Assembly: GCA_903918885.1 (NCBI GenBank) | Contig: CAIXFY010000040.1 | Span: forward strand, 1 to 64,000 | DNA from: an uncultured Verrucomicrobia subdivision 3 bacterium | GTDB taxonomy: Bacteria > Verrucomicrobiota > Verrucomicrobiia > Limisphaerales > UBA11358 | Direction: 5' to 3' | Length of the DNA stretch: 64,000 nt | Shown: piece after piece, positions 7,166 through 61,667 of the stretch | How the letters are laid out: every line of letters begins with the position of its first letter | Position numbering within the stretch: the first letter of the stretch is position 1 | Made by a program: the position numbers and the translations under genes | Notes under the pieces: model-generated | The model's input: only the letters and a program-made list of their open reading frames with translations | The model's database searches: none | What the model was told of the DNA's origin: nothing

Positions 7166-9205
7166 TCACTGGGTAATCGCCCCGCGCATGGCGGCGAAAA
7201 GATTCTTGCTGGATTCCTGCGCGACGGGCGTCTTGGATTTTGAATCGGACGTTTCGATGAGTTCCTCCGGCAGTTCCTTCAGAAACGGGGAAGGGTGACA
7301 CGGCAGCAACTGGCCGTATTTCTTGCGTCCGCCGCAATGGCTGATGGCCAGCGTCTGCATGGCGCGCGTTACGGCGACGTAAAATAATCTGCGTTCCTCA
7401 TCCATTGTGCCTTCCACTTTCGAGCGCGTATGCGGCAGCAATCCGTCCTCCAAGCCGACGACGAAAACGTGCGGAAATTCCAAGCCTTTGCACGAGTGCA
7501 TGGTGATAAGCGTGACAGCGTCCTGGGTGTTTTCTTTTTCCTCCTCGCGATCGCTGTCCAGTGTGATGTTCTCCAGAAAATTATCCAGTCGTTCCACTGG
7601 CGCATTGCCCGCCCCGTCCATCGTGGCCATGAGTTCCTTCAAATTGCGGACGCGCGCCTCGGACGCTTCGGGAGTTTTTTCCAGTCGGCGCAGTTCGGCG
7701 AAGTAGCCGGCCTCGGTCAGGAAATTATCTGCCCACGTTTGCAGGCGAAACTCATTCGCGGTCGTCTGCAACTCGCCTTGCCCACGCTCGATAAATTCCA
7801 CAAACGCCTCGATGCTTTTGCGCGTGTTCGTCTGAAACGTCGTCGTCACCAGCGGATTTTTCATCGCGGTGAAGACGGAACATTTCCGGTCGTGGCTCGC
7901 GCCGAGCAGCCGTTCCATCGTCACGTCGCTCAAGCCACGCGCGGGGGTGTTGGCGATGCGCAACAGGCTGATGTCGTCGTGCGGATTGACGAAGGTTTTC
8001 AGGTAGGCGAGGAAATCCTTGATCTCGCGCCGGTCAAAAAAGCTTTGTCCACCGATGAGATGATAGCGGACATTGGCCGCGCGTAACGCGGTTTCCAGCG
8101 GGCGCGATTGCTGGTTGGTGCGGAACAGGATGGCGCAATCTTGCCACGGAATCCGATAGGCGAGCCGCTTAAACTCAATCGCCGCCACGACTTCGCGCGC
8201 CTCGTCCTCGTCATTGCCGAAAGTGTTCAGCAGAATTTTTGCGCCCGCGCCTTTGCTCGACCACAAATTTTTACCGCGCCGCTGGACGTTGTTTTTGATG
8301 ATGGCGTTGGCGGCGTTGAGAATGGTCGTCGTGCTGCGGTAATTCTGTTCGAGCTTCACCACTTTGATCTCGGGAAAATGCTTTTCCATGTTCAGCAGGT
8401 TGGCGACTTCCGCGCCGCGCCAGCCGTAGATGCTCTGGTCGTCATCGCCGACGACACAGAAATTCCGATGCTCCTGCGTCAGCGAATGCACCAGCTCGAA
8501 CTGCGCGGCGTTGGTGTCCTGATACTCGTCCACCATGACGTATTGGTATTTGGCGCGGCAGGCCGCGAGCGCATCGGGATGTTCACGGAAGAGACGCAGC
8601 GTGAGCAGAATCAAATCGTCGAAATCCACCGCGTTGCAGGCGTGCAGAGCGGATTCGTAGCGCTTGGCAACGTGCTCGGCCAGCGCACGGACACTCGGGT
8701 CGCCAAAAGCTCGGTTACTGCTTTCGCCACCGTTCTTAAACTTACTCAACATTCCCAGCACCGCGCCGGGATCGGTCTTTTCGCCCTTGGCGGAAATGGC
8801 GGAAAGAATTTTTTTCACCGCCGCGAGCTGCTCGGATTCGTCGTAGATGACGAAATTCTTTTTGTAACCCAGCTTGTCAATGTGCATCCGTAAAATGCGG
8901 ACGCAGAGCGAGTGAAAGGTGCAGATGGTCGGGCGATTTTCTTTGTCGGCTTTGGCCTTTGGACTTTGGCCTTTGGACTTTGGCAACAGCTTGTTCACGC
9001 GTTCCTGCATTTCGCGCGCGGCCTTGTTCGTGAACGTCACTCCGAGAATATTTCCCGGCGCGATGCCTCGTTCCACCATGTGAGCGATGCGAAAGGTGAT
9101 GACGCGCGTCTTGCCCGTGCCCGCGCCGGCGAGGATTAATACCGGGCCGCGGATGGTCTCGGCGGCCTGGCGTTGCTGCGGATTGAGGGTGGACAGATTC
9201 AACAT
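7166..9205 (-). CDS. UvrD/PcrA/Rep-family ATP-dependent DNA helicase
   Basis: LNPQQRQAAETIRGPVLILAGAGTGKTRVITFRI, VDEYQDTN, GDDDQSIYGWRGA, VTLITMHSCKGLEFPHVFVVG. Confidence 0.95.
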   Translation of the reverse strand: MLNLSTLNPQQRQAAETIRGPVLILAGAGTGKTRVITFRIAHMVERGIAPGNILGVTFTNKAAREMQERVNKLLPKSKGQSPKAKADKENRPTICTFHSLCVRILRMHIDKLGYKKNFVIYDESEQLAAVKKILSAISAKGEKTDPGAVLGMLSKFKNGGESSNRAFGDPSVRALAEHVAKRYESALHACNAVDFDDLILLTLRLFREHPDALAACRAKYQYVMVDEYQDTNAAQFELVHSLTQEHRNFCVVGDDDQSIYGWRGAEVANLLNMEKHFPEIKVVKLEQNYRSTTTILNAANAIIKNNVQRRGKNLWSSKGAGAKILLNTFGNDEDEAREVVAAIEFKRLAYRIPWQDCAILFRTNQQSRPLETALRAANVRYHLIGGQSFFDRREIKDFLAYLKTFVNPHDDISLLRIANTPARGLSDVTMERLLGASHDRKCSVFTAMKNPLVTTTFQTNTRKSIEAFVEFIERGQGELQTTANEFRLQTWADNFLTEAGYFAELRRLEKTPEASEARVRNLKELMATMDGAGNAPVERLDNFLENITLDSDREEEKENTQDAVTLITMHSCKGLEFPHVFVVGLEDGLLPHTRSKVEGTMDEERRLFYVAVTRAMQTLAISHCGGRKKYGQLLPCHPSPFLKELPEELIETSDSKSKTPVAQESSKNLFAAMRGAITQ

Positions 9206-13029: not shown

Positions 13030-13043
13030 ATGGCGATTGAATT

Positions 13044-13162
13044 GGTGGGGCGAGCGTCCCCGCGAGCCGCCAAAATGAAGTGTAGTGTCGAGGCTGTGCC
13101 TCGAATCGTTGAGCCATAGGCTCAACCCTACAACCGGCGGCTCGCGAGGACGCTCGCCCACC
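13044..13162. repeat. 119-bp palindromic element (27-28 bp terminal inverted repeats, nested inner hairpins)
   Basis: GGTGGGGCGAGCGTCCCCGCGAGCCGCC ... GGCGGCTCGCGAGGACGCTCGCCCACC; inside, GAGGCTGTGCCTC and TGAGCCATAGGCTCA. Confidence 0.85.
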
Positions 13163-27900: not shown

Positions 27901-29083
27901 ACTGGAAGTCCACACCATCGTCATCGGCGCGGTCATTTCCGTGAAGGACGGCGGCAAAGTCAAGAAGGGCGATACCTTCGTCCAGTGGGATCCGCACAAT
28001 GTGCCGATTCTTTCCGAGAAGCCCGGCAAAGTGAAATTCCACGACATCATCGAGGGCGTCACCATGAAACAAGAAGTGGACGAAGCCACTGGCGAAGAAG
28101 CCATGGTTATCATCGACCACAAGGAAGATTTGCACCCGCAGATCATCATGTCCGACGACAAGGGCGAAGTCGTGGCGAACTACCCTATTCCTTCCGGCGC
28201 ACACATTGTTGTCAACGAAGGCGACAAGATTGTTCCCGGCACACTCATTGCCAAGACGCCGCGCAAACAGGCCAAGACCCGCGACATCACGGGCGGTCTC
28301 CCGCGCGTGGCGGAATTGTTCGAAGCGCGCCGCCCGAAGGACGCGTCCGAAATCTCCAAGATTGATGGCATCGCGGACTTTGGTCCGAGCGTGCGCGGCA
28401 AGCGTTGCGTGCTCATCACCGACGCGGTCACGAAGTTGCAGGAAGAGCATCTCATCCCGATCGGCAAGCACGTCATCGTCTTCAAGGGCGACCTGGTCAA
28501 GAAAGGCCAGCAGCTCACCGAAGGCCCGATGGACCCGCACGAAATCCTCGACGTTTGCGGTCCGCAGGAATTGCAGGAACACTTGGTCAGCGAAGTGCAG
28601 GAAGTTTATCGTCTCCAGGGCGTGACGATTAACGACAAGCACATCGAAATCATTGTCCGCCAGATGCTGCGCAAAGTGCGCGTCACCGAAGCCGGCGATA
28701 CGCAATTCCTCTGGGGCGAACAGGTGGACAAGCTCGAATTCGAAGCCGAGAACGAAGCCGTGGAAAAGAAGGGTGGCAAGCCGGCGGAAGCCGTGCCCGT
28801 GCTGCTCGGCATCACCAAGGCCTCGCTCGAAACCGACAGCTTCCTCAGCGCCGCGTCCTTCCAGGACACCACGCGCGTGCTCACCGAAGCCGCGACGCGT
28901 TCCAAGATCGACTCGCTGCGCGGGTTCAAGGAAAACGTCATCATGGGCCACATCATCCCGGCGGGCAGCGGTTTCGACCGCCACCGCAAGACCACCATCC
29001 ATCCGTTGGTGGAACTGCCAGAAGAACCGGCCATCGAAGAATCCGCCGAAGCCGCGGAATCCGAAAATCCGCTGCTGGCCTGA
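24938..29083 (+). CDS. rpoC: DNA-directed RNA polymerase subunit beta'
   Basis: [40 protein letters not shown] catalytic motif, [22 protein letters not shown]. Confidence 0.98.
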
Positions 29084-29099
29084 TTAAAATTAAAACCGC

Positions 29100-29138
29100 A
29101 AAGGCGTCCGATGAAAATCGGACGCCTTTTTGTCTTTT
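29100..29138 (+). terminator. Rho-independent terminator after rpoC
   Basis: AAGGCGTCCGAT GAAA ATCGGACGCCTT TTTGTCTTTT. Confidence 0.85.
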
Positions 29139-29156
29139 AAAATTTTCTAGAATTTT

Positions 29157-29183
29157 GGCGGGGCGAGCGTCCTCGCGGGCCGG
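29157..29183. repeat. Solo arm of the GGYGGGGCGAGCGTCC repeat family
   Basis: GGCGGGGCGAGCGTCCTCGCGGGCCGG closely matches the arms of the 13044..13162 element. Confidence 0.6.
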
Positions 29184-31739
29184 TCAGGGCTTCACCACGG
29201 CGACGACCGCCGATTCCGGCTTGAGATATTTTTGCGCGACGCCCTTGATTTGTTCCAGCGTCACCGCTTTGTATTTCGCGTCATCCAGTTCGTTGCGCTG
29301 CCAGCCGAGACCGTAGAGTTCGTCCAATGCGCTGGTCATGGCGAGGTGGCCCAGGTCGGCGCGGGAGATTTTCTTGCCGCCGATGATCTTGGCCTTGGCG
29401 CGCTTCAATTCCTCGGCGGTCAGGCCTTCCGTGCGGAGCAGTTCGGCTTCCTTGAGCAGTTCTTTTTCCACGAGTTCGGCCTTGGCCGGTTCCGTGCCGG
29501 TGTAAAAGGCGAAGTAGCCGGGCGCGACGCCGCTCATCGTTTGCGCGCCGACGTAATACGCCAGACCGAGCTGTTCGCGGATGCGGAGGAACAGCCGCGA
29601 GCCGAGGTCGCTGCAGCATTCCTGCAAAATCTCCAGCGCGTAGCGGTCCTCGCTGAACATCGTCGCGCCGGGAAAGCCGATGACCAGCACGGCCTGTTTC
29701 TTGTCGCGCGTTTCGGTGACGCGTTGGATGGTAGGGATCGCAGTCCCCTGCGAGCCGCCGGACGGCGCGCACGGAGTGGCGCGCCCTACCTGCTTCCAGC
29801 CGCCAAACGCCTTTTCCACCGCCGCTTTCACGGCGTCGGTTTTCACGTCGCCGAAAATGGCGAGGACGCAATTGTCCGGCGCGACGAGTTTTTGGTGGAA
29901 TGATTTCAGGTCGGCGACGGAAACTTTTTGCACGCTGGCTTCCGTGCCAATCGGGTCGAGGCCGAAACCGATTGCGCCGAACAGCGCCCGCCGCATCGCG
30001 AGGCTGCAACTTTTCAGCAAATCGTCGCGCCGCGCGGCGATGCCGGCGAGTTGGACTTCGCGTTCGCGTTCCAATTCGTCGGCGGGAAAAATCGGATTCA
30101 GCAAAACATCGCTGACGAGCGCGAGGCCGGTCGCAAAATCCTCGCTCAAAACTTCCGCGTTCACGCCGAAGCTCTGGTTGCCGCCGTAGCTGTCAATGTG
30201 TCCGCCGACGCTTTCGATTTCCGTCGCGATTTGCTCCGCGTTGTGCGTGGGCGTGCCCTTGAGCAGCAGTCGGGCGAGCAGGGAGGTGATGCCGTTGTTC
30301 GCCTCGTTTTCGGCCAGCACGCCTCCTTGCAACACCGCGCGAAATTCCACGAAGGGCAGGCGATGATCTTCCTTCACGAGCAGTTTCAGGCCGTTCGGCA
30401 ATTCGATTTTTTGAATCGGATGTTCAACATTCGTTTCCGCGTGCGCGGCGACCTTGGGCGTGTGACCTTCCGGCAACAGCGCGTAAAGCGTGCGGTTCTC
30501 GGTGGAAAGATAAGTGCGGGCGACGCGCTGGACTTCGGCGGCGGTCACGCGCTTCACGGCGGCGAGATAGCGCTCGGAGAAATTCAGGTCATTCGCGGCG
30601 AGCCAGTTGCCGCCAAGATTTTGCGCCTGGCCTTCCATCGTCTTGCGCGACGACAGCGTGGCAGAAATGAATTGTTTCACCGCCTTCGACAATTCCTCGG
30701 CGGAAACCAGATTGGTTTTCACCTTTTCAACTTCGGCGAGAATCGCCTCGCGCGCGGCGGAAAATTGTTCTCCGTCCACCACGGCGCTCACGCCGAAAAG
30801 TCCCGGCAAACCGGGGCTGTAAGTCCACGCGTCCACGTGATGCGCGACACCTTGCTTTTCGCGCACTTGCTGGTGCAGACGCGAACTGCGGCCGCTGCCG
30901 AGCAGCACGGCCAGCACGTCGAGAATCGGAATGTCCGCGTGCCGCAATTCGGGAATGTGCCACGCGAAATGGACGTGCCCGAGTTCCACGTTGGCTTCCT
31001 CGATGATGGTGCGTTCGCCGATCTGTTTCGGTTCGAGCGGCAAAACCGCCGGCGGAATGGCGCGCGCTTTCGTTTTGGCGTAAGCGGTTTTGATTTGCGC
31101 GACGACCTCGGAATTTTTCACGTCGCCGGCGACGACGTAGAAGACGTTGTTCGGCGCGTATTTTTCGTGATAGTAATTGCGGATGTCGTCCGGCTTGAGT
31201 TCGTTGAAAATATCGGGGTAGCCGATGATGGTGAAGCGGTAGGGGCTTTTAACGTAGGCGACTTCAAACAGGCGGCGGCTGGCGCGGCTGGCGGGATTGT
31301 CCTGCCCCATGTCCATCTCGCGGCGGATGACGTCCATCTCCTTCGCTAATTCATCCGGCGGCAGCGTGGCGTGCTGCATGATGTCGCACAAAATATCAAT
31401 CACCTTCACCGCGCCGGTGTTTGGCGCGTCAATGTGATAGACCGTGCGATCAAAACTCGTGTAGGCGTTCATGTAACCGCCGGCTTCCTGCACTTCCTGA
31501 TCAATCCGGCTGCCGGGGCGCGTCGTTGTGCCCTTGAACAACATGTGTTCGAGGACGTGCGAAAGTCCCGCGCCGAGCCAGCGACCCTCGTGGACGCTGC
31601 CAGCGCCGCACCATGCCTGCGCGGACACGACCGGCGCGTTGTGATCTTCGCGCACGATGACGGTCAGGCCGTTGTCGAGCGTCGTGAGCGTGACGCCGGG
31701 GGGAATGGACGGAATCTCGGTATAAATTTTTTCAGCCAT
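29184..31739 (-). CDS. M16 family metallopeptidase, two fused M16 units (first with HxxEH)
   Basis: LSHVLEHMLFKGT (inverted zinc motif), second unit lacks it; duplicated M16 architecture. Confidence 0.92.
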   Translation of the reverse strand: MAEKIYTEIPSIPPGVTLTTLDNGLTVIVREDHNAPVVSAQAWCGAGSVHEGRWLGAGLSHVLEHMLFKGTTTRPGSRIDQEVQEAGGYMNAYTSFDRTVYHIDAPNTGAVKVIDILCDIMQHATLPPDELAKEMDVIRREMDMGQDNPASRASRRLFEVAYVKSPYRFTIIGYPDIFNELKPDDIRNYYHEKYAPNNVFYVVAGDVKNSEVVAQIKTAYAKTKARAIPPAVLPLEPKQIGERTIIEEANVELGHVHFAWHIPELRHADIPILDVLAVLLGSGRSSRLHQQVREKQGVAHHVDAWTYSPGLPGLFGVSAVVDGEQFSAAREAILAEVEKVKTNLVSAEELSKAVKQFISATLSSRKTMEGQAQNLGGNWLAANDLNFSERYLAAVKRVTAAEVQRVARTYLSTENRTLYALLPEGHTPKVAAHAETNVEHPIQKIELPNGLKLLVKEDHRLPFVEFRAVLQGGVLAENEANNGITSLLARLLLKGTPTHNAEQIATEIESVGGHIDSYGGNQSFGVNAEVLSEDFATGLALVSDVLLNPIFPADELEREREVQLAGIAARRDDLLKSCSLAMRRALFGAIGFGLDPIGTEASVQKVSVADLKSFHQKLVAPDNCVLAIFGDVKTDAVKAAVEKAFGGWKQVGRATPCAPSGGSQGTAIPTIQRVTETRDKKQAVLVIGFPGATMFSEDRYALEILQECCSDLGSRLFLRIREQLGLAYYVGAQTMSGVAPGYFAFYTGTEPAKAELVEKELLKEAELLRTEGLTAEELKRAKAKIIGGKKISRADLGHLAMTSALDELYGLGWQRNELDDAKYKAVTLEQIKGVAQKYLKPESAVVAVVKP
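29730..29790. repeat. 61-bp palindromic repeat inside the M16 peptidase gene
   Basis: GGTAGGG...GCAGTCCCCTGCGAGCCGCCGGACGGCGCGCACGGAGTGGCGCG CCCTACC; shares most of its sequence with 48150..48206 (opposite orientation). Confidence 0.85.
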
Positions 31740-47248: not shown

Positions 47249-47910
47249 TTGGTTTTGGGCGGAAGTTGTTCCGGCGAAATCGAGCCGAGGCTCACGATAT
47301 ATTTGATGCCCTCGGCCACGCTCATGTCGAGCTTAGTCACGTTCTCCTCCGGCACGAGAATCAGAAATCCGCTTGTCGGATTCGGCGTGGTCGGGATAAA
47401 AACGCCGACCAGATTTTTTCCAGACTTCTGCTGGACTTCGCCTTTGGCCTCGTTGGTTATAAAACCAACGGAATAATTTCCCGGCCCCGGAAATTCCACC
47501 AGCACCACGGTCTTGAATGAATTTTTATTCCCCGAAAAAGCTTCGTTCACCTGTTTGATCGCGCCGTAAAACTTGTTGAAAATCGGCACGTTCATCATCA
47601 CCGTGTCGAGCCATTCAATCATGCGCTTGCCGATGTAATAGCGTGCCAGTAGGCCGACGCACGAAATCAGCACCGCTGCCAGCACCAGTGCCAGCAGGCT
47701 CCAATACCAAAACATCGCGCCGGACTGGCCATTTTCGTAAACTTCCTTCGGGCCGAGAATATATGGCAGAAAAAACAGCAGCGTGTCCGTGAAGCTGGAA
47801 ATGGTTCCGAAAATCCACTTCACCGCCGCGAGCGTGATCAGCGCCGGCAGGGTCACGGCCAGACCGGTGAAGAAACTCGCGCGCCAACCGGCAAAAAAGG
47901 TTTTTCTCAC
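47245..47910 (-). CDS. DUF502 family membrane protein
   Basis: FFTGLAVTLPALITLAAVKWIF...VVLVEFPGPGNYSVGFITNEA...VFIPTTPNPTSGFLILVPEENV. Confidence 0.88.
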   Translation of the reverse strand: MRKTFFAGWRASFFTGLAVTLPALITLAAVKWIFGTISSFTDTLLFFLPYILGPKEVYENGQSGAMFWYWSLLALVLAAVLISCVGLLARYYIGKRMIEWLDTVMMNVPIFNKFYGAIKQVNEAFSGNKNSFKTVVLVEFPGPGNYSVGFITNEAKGEVQQKSGKNLVGVFIPTTPNPTSGFLILVPEENVTKLDMSVAEGIKYIVSLGSISPEQLPPKTK

Positions 47911-48416
47911 GCGCCGATTTTAACCGTGCGCGAAACTTGTGCGAGCGAAAACCGTTTTTCCAAATGGCGCATCAGTCGGTTTTCCTCGCGCTTCATCTCG
48001 CGTCGCAACGCGGGCTTCAAATCGTCATAGCCGAGCAGATGCAAAACGCCGTGGACGATGTAACGGACCAACTCGGACTGCCAGGTCGTCTTGAATTCTT
48101 TCGCTTGCGCCACGGCCACGGTCACGCAGATGAAAAGTTCGCCGTGGATGGTGGGGCGCGTCACTCCGTGCGCGCCGTCGGCGGGCAGGGGACTACCCGC
48201 CCTACCTTCAGCATGGTCAAACGTAATCACGTCCGTCGCGCCTTCATGCTGGAGAAAGGTTTCATTCACCAGCGCCATTTCCCGCGCGCCGACAAGGTTG
48301 ACACCAAGTTCTGCCTCCGTGGTTTTTAATTCAGCCAACAGCGCTTCCGTGATTTCCTTAAGTCGGCCCGGATTAATTTTTTTCTTCCGCTGGCGGTTGG
48401 CGATGACGACGCTCAT
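47907..48416 (-). CDS. ybeY: Endoribonuclease/rRNA maturation factor YbeY
   Basis: MALVNETFLQHEGATDVITFDH, HGVLHLLGYDD; upstream of phoH-like gene order. Confidence 0.9.
   Translation of the reverse strand: MSVVIANRQRKKKINPGRLKEITEALLAELKTTEAELGVNLVGAREMALVNETFLQHEGATDVITFDHAEGRAGSPLPADGAHGVTRPTIHGELFICVTVAVAQAKEFKTTWQSELVRYIVHGVLHLLGYDDLKPALRREMKREENRLMRHLEKRFSLAQVSRTVKIGA
48150..48206. repeat. 57-bp palindromic repeat inside ybeY
   Basis: GGTGGGGCGCGTCACTCCGTGCGCGCCGTCGGCGGGCAGGGGACTACCCGCCCTACC; inverted relative to 29730..29790. Confidence 0.85.
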
Positions 48417-49944: not shown

Positions 49945-50199
49945 TCATTTCCGCCGTTGAAACAAATAGCGTGCAAATGAAATCAGCCCGGAGAATTTGT
50001 AGTTCGGATCCACATATTTCTCGATGACGTAGAAGGCAAAGTAATAAAACCGGCAGAAACTCCAGATAGCCATCGCGAGCAACGCGCCTTTGGACCATTT
50101 CGGATCGTCCAGAAGCAATAGAACGACGCAGACAATGCCGATGACCAGAAACAAAATCCCCTTGAGCTTGATCCAAAATGGATTCGACAGGTCTTTCAT
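49945..50199 (-). CDS. Small hypothetical membrane protein (84 aa)
   Basis: MKDLSNPFWIKLKGILFLVIGIVCVVLLLLDD; start immediately follows lpxB with overlapping ATG/TGA region. Confidence 0.65.
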   Translation of the reverse strand: MKDLSNPFWIKLKGILFLVIGIVCVVLLLLDDPKWSKGALLAMAIWSFCRFYYFAFYVIEKYVDPNYKFSGLISFARYLFQRRK

Positions 50200-51341
50200 G
50201 GGAACAAGCTCAACACCGCCGCCGCCGCGCGTCCAGTCGCGCCCGGTTCGCCGAGCGAGGCGATGATTTTTGCGAGCTGTGCTTTGATTTGTGTCCGGTG
50301 CGCTTCGTCTTGCAATAAATCCAGCGCGGCGCGTGAAAGATTTTCCGGCGTCGCCTCGTTCTGGATGAATTCCGGATAAACCGGCTCGCCGGCTAGCAGG
50401 TTGGGCATCGTCAGCGATTTCACTGTTACGATGCGCTTGGCGATCTGGTAGGTGAGCCACGAGGTTTTGTAGAGGGTCACCGTTGGCACGCCAAAGAACG
50501 CGCACTCCATCGTCACCGTGCCCGTCGAGGCGATGGCGACATCCGCCTCCGCCAGCGCCCACGGCAATTCGCCGATTTGGATTTCCAGATTCGCGCCGAG
50601 TGATTTTGCGAGCGACACCAAAGCCGGATTCGGCAAAACCATTTTCGCCTTCGCCGCCGGCAGCTTTTCCTGAATCAACTTCAGCGCGTCCAGCATCACC
50701 GGCAAATGCCTTTGCAATTCACTTTTGCGGCTGCCGGGCAGCAGTAGGATTTTTGGCGCAGCGGAATTGTCCGGCTTCTGCATTCTTAATTCTTCCTTCT
50801 GCATTCGCTCCACCATGGGATGACTGACGAATTCCACGCGCAGTTTGGGCACGCGCTTGGCATACCAATCCTTCTCAAACGGGAAAATGCTCAACAGCAG
50901 ATCATAGTCGCGTGCCAGCTTGTTCGCGCGGCCGGGACGCGACGCCCAGACCTGTGGCGAGACGAACTGGACGATTTTCGGATTCCACTTGGAAAACGGA
51001 TTCTCGCGGACGTATTTCTTCACCGCTTGACCGAAGCGCAGGTTGAACCCGCCATAATCCACGCCGATGACCACGTCTGGCTGGCGTTCAATCGCCAGCG
51101 CCAGCAGTTGATTGAACAGCCGCCGGAACTTCAAAATATTTTTCAGCACGTCCGTGATACCGATGACCGAGTGCTGGGTCAGGTCGAAAGCCAAGTCCAC
51201 GCCGGCGGCGGACATCTTGGCGCCACCCGCGCCGAAAAACTGCGCGTCAGGCAACTGCCCGCGCAGCGCGGACACGAGTTCCGCTGCGAGCAAATCCCCG
51301 CTCGCCTCACCGGCGATGAGCATGAAGGTTTTTGGTTTCAC
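50196..51341 (-). CDS. lpxB: Lipid-A-disaccharide synthase
   Basis: MLIAGEASGDLLAAELVSALR, FFGAGGAKMSAAGVDL, KIVQFVSPQVWASRPGRANKLARDYDLLLSIFPFEKDWY. Confidence 0.95.
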   Translation of the reverse strand: MKPKTFMLIAGEASGDLLAAELVSALRGQLPDAQFFGAGGAKMSAAGVDLAFDLTQHSVIGITDVLKNILKFRRLFNQLLALAIERQPDVVIGVDYGGFNLRFGQAVKKYVRENPFSKWNPKIVQFVSPQVWASRPGRANKLARDYDLLLSIFPFEKDWYAKRVPKLRVEFVSHPMVERMQKEELRMQKPDNSAAPKILLLPGSRKSELQRHLPVMLDALKLIQEKLPAAKAKMVLPNPALVSLAKSLGANLEIQIGELPWALAEADVAIASTGTVTMECAFFGVPTVTLYKTSWLTYQIAKRIVTVKSLTMPNLLAGEPVYPEFIQNEATPENLSRAALDLLQDEAHRTQIKAQLAKIIASLGEPGATGRAAAAVLSLFP

Positions 51342-58440: not shown

Positions 58441-60165
58441 TTATTTCAACTCCGGATGCGCAGCAAGCAGACCAGCTAATTCTTTTTCCGCAGCGGATAA
58501 ATTCTTTTGCCAGCGCAAGGCCTCGCGCAGTTGCGCGGCGGCCTCGGGAAATTTTTCCATTTGAATGAGCGTCTGGCCGAGGCGGAAATGGCCGTTCGCG
58601 AATTCTGGACGGATTCTTAACGCGCTCTGAAAACACTGCGCGGCTTCCGGCCAATGTTTTTCCTGGAGAAAATAAACGCCGACGTTTAACTGCGCATCAG
58701 CGTTGTTCGGGTCATAGTGCGCGGCGGCGACGAGGTGTGGAAAAGCCTCGTCCTTTTTACAAAAACCAATCAGTGCGAGGCCGAGGTTGTATTGGCTGAT
58801 GGGATAGCGCGGTTCGATGCGCACGGATTCGCGGTAAAGCACGAAGGCGCGGAGGTCATCGCCCTTATTTTCAAACGCCTTGCCCAGCGTGTTGGCGGCG
58901 ACGTAGTTGTTTTCGGTCACCTCAACGGCGTGGAGAAACAGCGTGATGCTGTTGCGCCAATAGGAAATCTGCAGATCCGCCGTTAGCACGCAACCAATCA
59001 CCGCGCCGCCGCCGAGAATCAGGAGAATGGTTTGGCTGTGCGGTCGCGCGAGGCAGATTTCCGTAACCCCCCAGACGCCCACGATGAACAGGCCGATGGC
59101 CGGGAAATAGGTGTAACGGTCGGCCATGGATTGTGCGCCGACTTGCACCAGACCGATGACGGGCACAAGTGTGCCGAGAAACCAGAACCAGCCGACGGCC
59201 ACCCACGGTTTACGCCGGAGCAGCATCACGGCCAGCGCGGAAATTACTGCTATCAACAAAACCGAGCCGATAATTATCAGTGTCGGCCAGCGGTAGACGT
59301 AGGGATAAACGATGGCCAGATCGGTCGGCCAAAAAAGTTTTGAAAGGTAGCGCACATAGGCGACGGGGACATTGCCGAGGCGACTGGAAAATTCGACGGG
59401 GCTCATTGCGCCAGCTTTGCGTTGAACAAAAAATGTCACCGCGCAAAGGCCGAAGGACAAAATGAAAAACGGAATTTTTTCGAGCAGGAGTTTTTGCAAA
59501 TTCTGAATTCTGAATTCTGAACTCTGAACTCTGCCCAACGGCCACACGTCCAGCAGCAGCAAAGTGAACGGCAGTGTCACGGCCATCGGTTTGGCGAGCA
59601 GGGCGCAGACGCAAAAAAACAAGGCGGCGGCGTAACAAACTTTGAATTTTGAATTTTGGGCTTTGGAATAATTGGCATAGCTCGCGTAGCTGATGATGGT
59701 CAGCAGCCAGAAAAACGCGCTCAACACGTCCTTCCGTTCGGCAATCCACGCGACCGATTCCACATGCAGCGGATGCCACGCAAACAGCGCGGCCACCATG
59801 GCGCTGCGCCACATTGCGCCGGTGGCGGAGCGTAGAAATGCGAATAACAACAAAGTATTCGCGATGTGAAAAAGGACGTTCATCAAGTGATGGCCGCCTG
59901 GGTCCACGGCAAAAATCTGGCAGTCTACCATGTGCGAAATCCATGTGAGCGGATGCCAGTTGGCGACGTGGATGCCGTTGAACGCCCAGACGAGTCCGTG
60001 CCACGTCAGGCCGGCGCGCGTGACGGGATTGTCGTAAATATATTCATCGTCATCGAAGTTGATGAAGGAAAAATCGGTCGTCGGCCAGTAGAGCAACAGC
60101 GTTCCGAGGGTAAGCAAAAGGCCGACCAACGTGAAAAGTCTTTTATCCGTTGGCTCTGAAGTCAT
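58441..60165 (-). CDS. Multi-pass membrane protein with C-terminal TPRs (TMTC / O-mannosyltransferase-like)
   Basis: DFSFINFDDDEYIYDNPVTRAGLTWHGLVWAF...WHPLTWISHMVDCQIF...HPLHVESVAWIAERKDVLS; TPR region at C-terminus. Confidence 0.85.
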   Translation of the reverse strand: MTSEPTDKRLFTLVGLLLTLGTLLLYWPTTDFSFINFDDDEYIYDNPVTRAGLTWHGLVWAFNGIHVANWHPLTWISHMVDCQIFAVDPGGHHLMNVLFHIANTLLLFAFLRSATGAMWRSAMVAALFAWHPLHVESVAWIAERKDVLSAFFWLLTIISYASYANYSKAQNSKFKVCYAAALFFCVCALLAKPMAVTLPFTLLLLDVWPLGRVQSSEFRIQNLQKLLLEKIPFFILSFGLCAVTFFVQRKAGAMSPVEFSSRLGNVPVAYVRYLSKLFWPTDLAIVYPYVYRWPTLIIIGSVLLIAVISALAVMLLRRKPWVAVGWFWFLGTLVPVIGLVQVGAQSMADRYTYFPAIGLFIVGVWGVTEICLARPHSQTILLILGGGAVIGCVLTADLQISYWRNSITLFLHAVEVTENNYVAANTLGKAFENKGDDLRAFVLYRESVRIEPRYPISQYNLGLALIGFCKKDEAFPHLVAAAHYDPNNADAQLNVGVYFLQEKHWPEAAQCFQSALRIRPEFANGHFRLGQTLIQMEKFPEAAAQLREALRWQKNLSAAEKELAGLLAAHPELK

Positions 60166-60982: not shown

Positions 60983-61077
60983 GATTCAGTCCGCAAGTTT
61001 CAAGTTTTGTATTCAATCAAAAAGCCGGAACCGATTTTTCATTCCAGTTTTATTTACATGAGGGGCAGTAGCCTAAT

Positions 61078-61161
61078 TTGGAGTGCGGCGACATGTCGCC
61101 GCTTTCCGACTGGGCGACATGTCGCCCAGTTCCAAAGCGCGGACATGTCCGCGCACTCCAA
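61078..61161. repeat. 84-bp multi-hairpin palindromic element with three GACATGTC-centred hairpins
   Basis: TTGGAGTGC GCGGCGACATGTCGCCGC CTGGGCGACATGTCGCCCAG GCGCGGACATGTCCGCGC GCACTCCAA order of palindromes (some overlap). Confidence 0.9.
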
Positions 61162-61278
61162 GTTAATGCACTGCCTCTGCCCGCAGAGGCTTGACAGTTT
61201 TTCCGAATCCTGCTGTTATCGTCACGTCTCTGGGAATTGGGTATGGTCACCTTAAATAACTTCTTGGCTCCGGCGTTG

Positions 61279-61328
61279 GCTCGCCGGTCACGGCTCGCCG
61301 GTCACGGCTCGCCGCTTTAGCGGCGAGT
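61279..61328. repeat. 14-bp tandem repeat (CTCGCCGGTCACGG) followed by hairpin CTCGCCGCTTTAGCGGCGAG
   Basis: Read directly: GGCTCGCCGGTCACGGCTCGCCGGTCACGGCTCGCCGCTTTAGCGGCGAG. Confidence 0.85.
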
Positions 61329-61377
61329 AGCGCGGCAAAAAAGTTTTCTCTTTTTCAAGCCAATTCCCGTCGCCCCG

Positions 61378-61667
61378 AAACGTCCCTCGTTTTACCCCGG
61401 TTTGCGTCCGTCGCCATGGCGCGATCCTTGGTTTGCCTTGATTGGAACCAACCCGCCCCGCGCGACCTTCGTTTTACCTCGGTTCGTCCGAGTCACCGCC
61501 GCCCGACGCTCGTCTTGCCTTGTCCGCGTCCAAATCAGGGTGGCGCGACGCTTTTTTCGCCCCGATTTGCCCAAATCCACCCCGCCCGACGCTCGTTGGG
61601 AGCCGATGGGCGCAAATCTGGGTCAGCCAACCGTCGTTTTGCCCCGGTTGGCCGCAATTTTTGCCGG
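61378..61667. repeat. Degenerate tandem array, 7 units, period 41-42 bp
   Basis: Unit starts at about 61378, 61419, 61460, 61501, 61543, 61584, 61626 (GCSCGAYSCTCGTTTTGCCCCGGTT-like). Confidence 0.75.

Follow-up and report, generated by a model that had tools for sequence, protein, structure and literature searches.

GTAG-tagged REP doublets in frame inside conserved genes of Verrucomicrobia subdivision 3

REPINs are pairs of inverted REPs dispersed as a unit with predicted hairpins, and were defined in extragenic space, next to RAYT genes (PMC3116915). GTAG REP dimers are a related kind, and intragenic in-frame copies have already been reported in Opitutus terrae according to the main text of PMC3733652, which also assigns the Rickettsia palindromic elements RPE-4 and RPE-6 to a CGTC-tagged class. 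In-frame intragenic GTAG REP doublets are already known in Verrucomicrobia from that work, whose main text was not found to describe a strong single-frame bias, a prevalence of whole-codon gaps inside genes or the repeated occupation of one loop by unrelated repeats.

In this study, a stretch of 64,000 nucleotides from an uncultured Verrucomicrobia subdivision 3 bacterium (hereafter the window) was analysed, in which a sequence-only reading had pointed to a 61-bp palindromic, mobile-looking block inside an M16 peptidase gene. The block represents a single copy of a REPIN-like REP doublet with GTAG tags. The features of GTAG REP dimers were found here, namely the end tetranucleotide, a stem-loop body, a head-to-head pair with a short spacer and many dispersed copies. 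The dimers in the main text of PMC3733652 likewise have outer GTAG, a hairpin body, a heterodimeric build and a variable spacer, and those of O. terrae lie in frame in conserved genes of the same phylum, but they belong to another order and another sequence family. The doublets resemble REPINs in pairing two inverted REPs with predicted hairpins, which would be dispersed together. They differ from REPINs in that 55 of the 97 located doublets (genus and named loci) lie inside genes and that the family brackets no RAYT in the loci read. The sequence-only reading had likened the block to Rickettsia palindromic elements, in a different lineage and with unrelated sequence. Both provisos hold, and the two share palindromic repeats that are read in frame within unrelated proteins, but the closest kind is the GTAG REP doublet or REPIN rather than the RPE. 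The doublets here end in GGTAGGG and CCCTACC, whereas RPE-4 and RPE-6 are CGTC-tagged (main text of PMC3733652); RPE-1 is a longer palindrome, and the Verrucomicrobia doublets are GTAG-tagged and mostly 57–107 nt. New here are the quantified single-frame bias, the lack of detectable peptide conservation, and the finding that unrelated repeats, 7-bp arrays among them, fill the same loops repeatedly.

Element architecture and copies in the host genome

The features of the two copies in the window are as follows.
29184 to 31739, minus strand: M16 peptidase gene, 851 aa, Pfam PF00675 and PF05193
29730 to 29790, plus strand: GTAG REP head-to-head doublet of 61 nt inside the M16 gene (M16 copy)
29730 to 29756: arm A of the M16 copy, diverged
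29757 to 29763: gap of the M16 copy
29764 to 29790: arm B of the M16 copy
47907 to 48416, minus strand: ybeY, 169 aa, Pfam PF02130
48150 to 48206, minus strand: second copy, compact 57-nt doublet, frame +0, encoding GRAGSPLPADGAHGVTRPT

The position, sequence, GGTAGGG/CCCTACC ends and translation previously given for the block were all exact in the window. The unit is indeed a palindromic block, but its architecture is that of two different REP hairpins placed head to head, GGTAGGGCGGGCAG-TCCT-CTGCCCGCC and GGCGCGCACGG-AGT-GACGCGCCCTACC, and not of one palindrome. Stretches around approximately 70 copies were taken and scanned for the two arms without gaps, thereby locating 97 doublets, in which the gap separating the arms varied from 0 to 53 nt. 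The standard compact doublet is 57 nt, or 19 codons. The outer ends are GGTAGGG and CCCTACC in most listed doublets, with G/C variants in diverged copies, and one-arm matches occur alongside the common doublets. The doublets fold as single strands better than shuffled sequences, with z values of −2.9 (M16 copy), −2.6 (ybeY copy), and −4.6 and −6.2 (longer copies). A target-site logo showed a mild preference for GAA before in-gene elements. No consistent direct repeat was seen at the ends of the listed copies, for which RsmB provided the only clean empty site compared, and an Rfam scan of 29000–30500 returned nothing near the gathering score.

The core common to the M16 block and the ybeY copy had been claimed beforehand, and the ybeY copy was its only further match in the window; shuffled sequences gave an expectation of 0. 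Seven full-length copies, plus longer and partial ones, were found in the genome of the host (2.46 Mb, 85 contigs, 91% complete), so the family extends beyond the two copies of the window; these genome-wide counts rest on the genome search and sampled stretches. All seven compact copies are in frame within conserved genes, which encode the M16 peptidase, YbeY, MnmE, Mfd, RsmB, a SpoU-type methylase and a di-haem cytochrome c peroxidase. Six of them are 57 nt long. Three longer forms, of 90, 91 and 107 nt, are located either beyond predicted genes or at a gene edge. Sequence alignments with PDB chains (5hxk, 7y7o, 1oz9 and 3gee) placed the inserts in loops of naturally varying length. The YbeY insert covers residues 71–89, in the loop preceding HGELFIC, and a search with the YbeY protein also matched unrelated genes of the host and other genomes through the doublet peptide.

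The M16 copy is atypical and the most diverged in the host, with a length of 61 nt, six mismatches in arm A and a 7-nt gap. It is translated in frame on the minus strand as Q-VGRATPCAPSGGSQGTAIPT-IQ, corresponding to residues 651–670 in a loop of the second M16 half. Its frame is −1, and the loop around the doublet is replaced, which is no simple whole-codon insertion. The description as an in-frame, mobile-looking palindrome in a protein loop agrees with the seven host copies and with a loop that varies in length and sequence among M16 homologues. The gap expected in homologues at the insert was found only in part: the PDB match 5hxk_A has eight residues fewer there, but the loop is about 20 residues or longer in relatives, many of which hold different repeats. 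The M16 copy is therefore not merely 19–20 residues added to a gap-free homologue.

Spread, reading frame and encoded peptide

The family was present in 39 of 49 genomes of the genus and in 49 of 196 genomes of the order (Verrucomicrobia subdivision 3 / Limisphaerales), and identical doublet DNA occurred in other families of the order, with ends and arms exactly conserved order-wide. These data show a family of many dispersed copies across the order, which sits in frame inside conserved genes. Most of the named records that contain the compact form carry the label Verrucomicrobia bacterium, subdivision 3 or Limisphaerales; one was labelled Akkermansia muciniphila and looks mislabelled.

In the isolate Centralia_MAG_180 (loci L083, L085, L087–L090, L093 and L097–L099), compact doublets lie between genes and within an outer, longer inverted repeat (AGAACCTATCCC / GAGATAGGCTCT), which sets them apart from gene-resident copies.

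Genes outside the named proteins were called with a home-made codon model trained on the window. Among the 55 intragenic doublets, 47 are in frame +0, which reads GRAGSPLPA(n)DGAHGVTRPT. About three readings per doublet are stop-free, and hence approximately one third would be expected for any one of them; the preferred frame was used by 44 of 51 distinct intragenic copies (P ~7e-15) and, when same-site copies were collapsed, by 33 of 40 distinct sites (P 2e-10). The rejected open reading GRARHSVRAVGGQRTARPT has a charge of +4.8 compared with +0.8 for the preferred reading. Whole-codon gaps were found in 38 of 46 intragenic copies versus 14 of 26 other copies of the genus set (Fisher p 0.013). 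The biases in frame and gap fit a filter by selection. The frame bias could instead come from an insertion-site preference, since GAA often precedes the element.

Refilled loops and the origin of in-gene copies

The loops of five host genes were compared in relatives, where they hold nothing, other palindromes or 7-bp tandem arrays. The M16 loop is occupied by TTCAACC, CAGAATT and ATTTCAA arrays and other palindromes, and the YbeY loop by GCGGAAA, AATTCGG, CAGAAGC and CAGAAGT arrays or by the doublet; the MnmE and Mfd loops are refilled likewise. RsmB provides a clean empty site, TRDWTGENLA, with no insert in G053 and about 20 other genomes at the place where the host has 57 nt. A 7-bp period was detected in 35 of 106 loops of at least 21 nt versus 2 of 847 same-length neighbouring segments (p 8e-34), and no other lag from 4 to 11 exceeded one loop. 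Perfect hairpin arms of at least 8 nt were present in 16 of 106 loops versus 14 of 847 controls (p 7e-9); in both comparisons the controls were segments of neighbouring sequence. The tested loops were all chosen for a host doublet, so the doublet frequency in them is biased and the 7-bp arrays of relatives are not. Tentatively, permissive loops may form a standing reservoir in which doublets, palindromes and 7-bp arrays swap in frame over short evolutionary time, with the resident repeat as a possible preferred target. Heptanucleotide STRR of cyanobacteria also consist of 7-bp tandem units at variable positions; the arrays here differ in lying in protein-coding loops and sharing sites with REP doublets. 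A literature search on heptamer arrays in coding loops yielded nothing relevant.

The host has two 148-aa Y1 (IS200-like) genes, neither of which is bracketed by the family, and a third Y1 match (G000:C46) is weak and forms no clear gene. None of 30 Y1-transposase loci of the genus, read at up to 1.5 kb of flank, was bracketed by the family. Copy number correlated no more than moderately with Y1 gene number, at Spearman 0.42 (p 0.003) for loose candidate counts and 0.24 (p 0.10) among the scored matches listed. A candidate RAYT bracketed by the family, the IS200-like gene of G009 (L117), was rejected; the nearby REPs are two in-frame doublets in the adjoining methyltransferase gene. Since no transposase is tied to the family, RAYT-driven movement is proposed by analogy with the known kind.

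The observations are probably best explained by a REPIN-like doublet that lands widely and whose in-gene copies survive as tolerated, whole-codon, stop-free loop inserts. The doublet would move as a small non-autonomous element, and copies in genes would last only where they comprise whole codons, offer a stop-free tolerable reading and fall in a permissive surface loop, the preferred reading being a near-neutral Gly/Ala/Pro-rich peptide. With persistence confined to permissive loops, the same loops would be used again and again by the doublet family, other palindromes and 7-bp arrays. On this view the inserts are best regarded as tolerated rather than functional. Doublets at the same site in different species have arms that are 85–100% identical, whereas the flanking 4-fold sites are 41–80% identical (41–66% in most pairs). 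Old shared insertions decaying neutrally do not fit such alike arms beside diverged silent flanks, and the shared sites require either repeated insertion or arm homogenisation. Concerted evolution, in which the insertions at shared sites are old and gene conversion has kept the arms alike, would account for this pattern and for a DEAD-helicase pair that shares the linker VEKP as though inherited. However, the YbeY doublet is patchily distributed and requires a minimum of five changes on a tree of four concatenated proteins; G053, the sister of the host on that tree, is empty or otherwise filled at YbeY, MnmE, Mfd and RsmB, and same-site pairs can differ in gap length (57 vs 75 nt), which makes this explanation rather unlikely.

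Replication errors, that is, template switching at hairpins and 7-bp slippage without a transposase at loops that merely tolerate the products, are a somewhat weaker candidate and are judged unlikely. The 7-bp arrays need no transposase and are at least as common as the palindromes in the tested loops, and G055, G007 and G015 have many copies and no Y1 match, G055 having the most candidate copies. The exact, order-wide conservation of doublet ends and arms is nevertheless as for a copied unit. Exaptation of the peptide as a linker or as a degradation or binding signal maintained by selection is highly improbable. The strong preference for one reading would suit it, and so would the ybeY copy of G002, a single striking case in which all six differences from the consensus are synonymous. 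Synonymous and nonsynonymous changes from the consensus, however, numbered 35:32 in intragenic copies and 25:26 in intergenic copies to which that frame was applied virtually (p 0.85), so that conservation of the encoded peptide was not detectable by this comparison and purifying selection on it was not supported; in relatives, these loops also hold unrelated peptides. That ordinary variable coding sequence resembles a repeat by chance can practically be dismissed. The loop is hypervariable in all relatives, but this explanation is refuted by seven copies in unrelated genes, by 0 matches expected from shuffles and by the recurrence of identical DNA in further families within the order.

If tolerated insertion is correct, essential proteins continually take up dispersed repeat DNA, with about 19 aa added to surface loops per doublet. 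The family offers a rich natural series of insertions that core proteins have tolerated, with dozens of genomes having empty sites, thereby allowing direct tests of how repeats become protein sequence, which frames survive and how loops are reused. Peptides of Verrucomicrobia proteins that look conserved, GRAGSPLPADGAHGVTRPT for example, are repeat-derived, and annotation and homology searches can be misled by them.

At the rsmB loci L183 and L185 (G042 and G040), the same-site arms are identical, the 21-nt linkers match at about half of their positions and the flanking coding DNA is 86% identical. The linker seems to change faster than all its surroundings.

Other repeats in the window

Three further 7-bp-type arrays lie in frame in genes on the minus strand of the window. 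A heptamer-type array at 50769–50805 encodes RMQKEELRMQKPD (residues 179–191) in lpxB (50199–51341). A (CTTTGGC/CTTTGGA) array at 8950–8984 encodes LPKSKGQSPKAKA (residues 74–86) in a UvrD-type helicase gene (7169–9205), and an (AATTCTG)5 array at 59499–59533 covers residues 199–211 of a TPR protein gene (58444–60129). A second palindromic family, GGGGCGAGCGTCC..CGCGAGCC, forms an intergenic doublet at 13042–13159 and a single copy at 29155–29182, immediately downstream of the M16 gene. In G056, a P-type ATPase-like gene carries a similar sequence in frame (L146, 1193–1321). An intergenic cluster at 61061–61596 combines a palindrome of three hairpins that has ACATGT cores with a tandem of GGCTCGCCGGTCAC and an array of degenerate 41-bp repeats.
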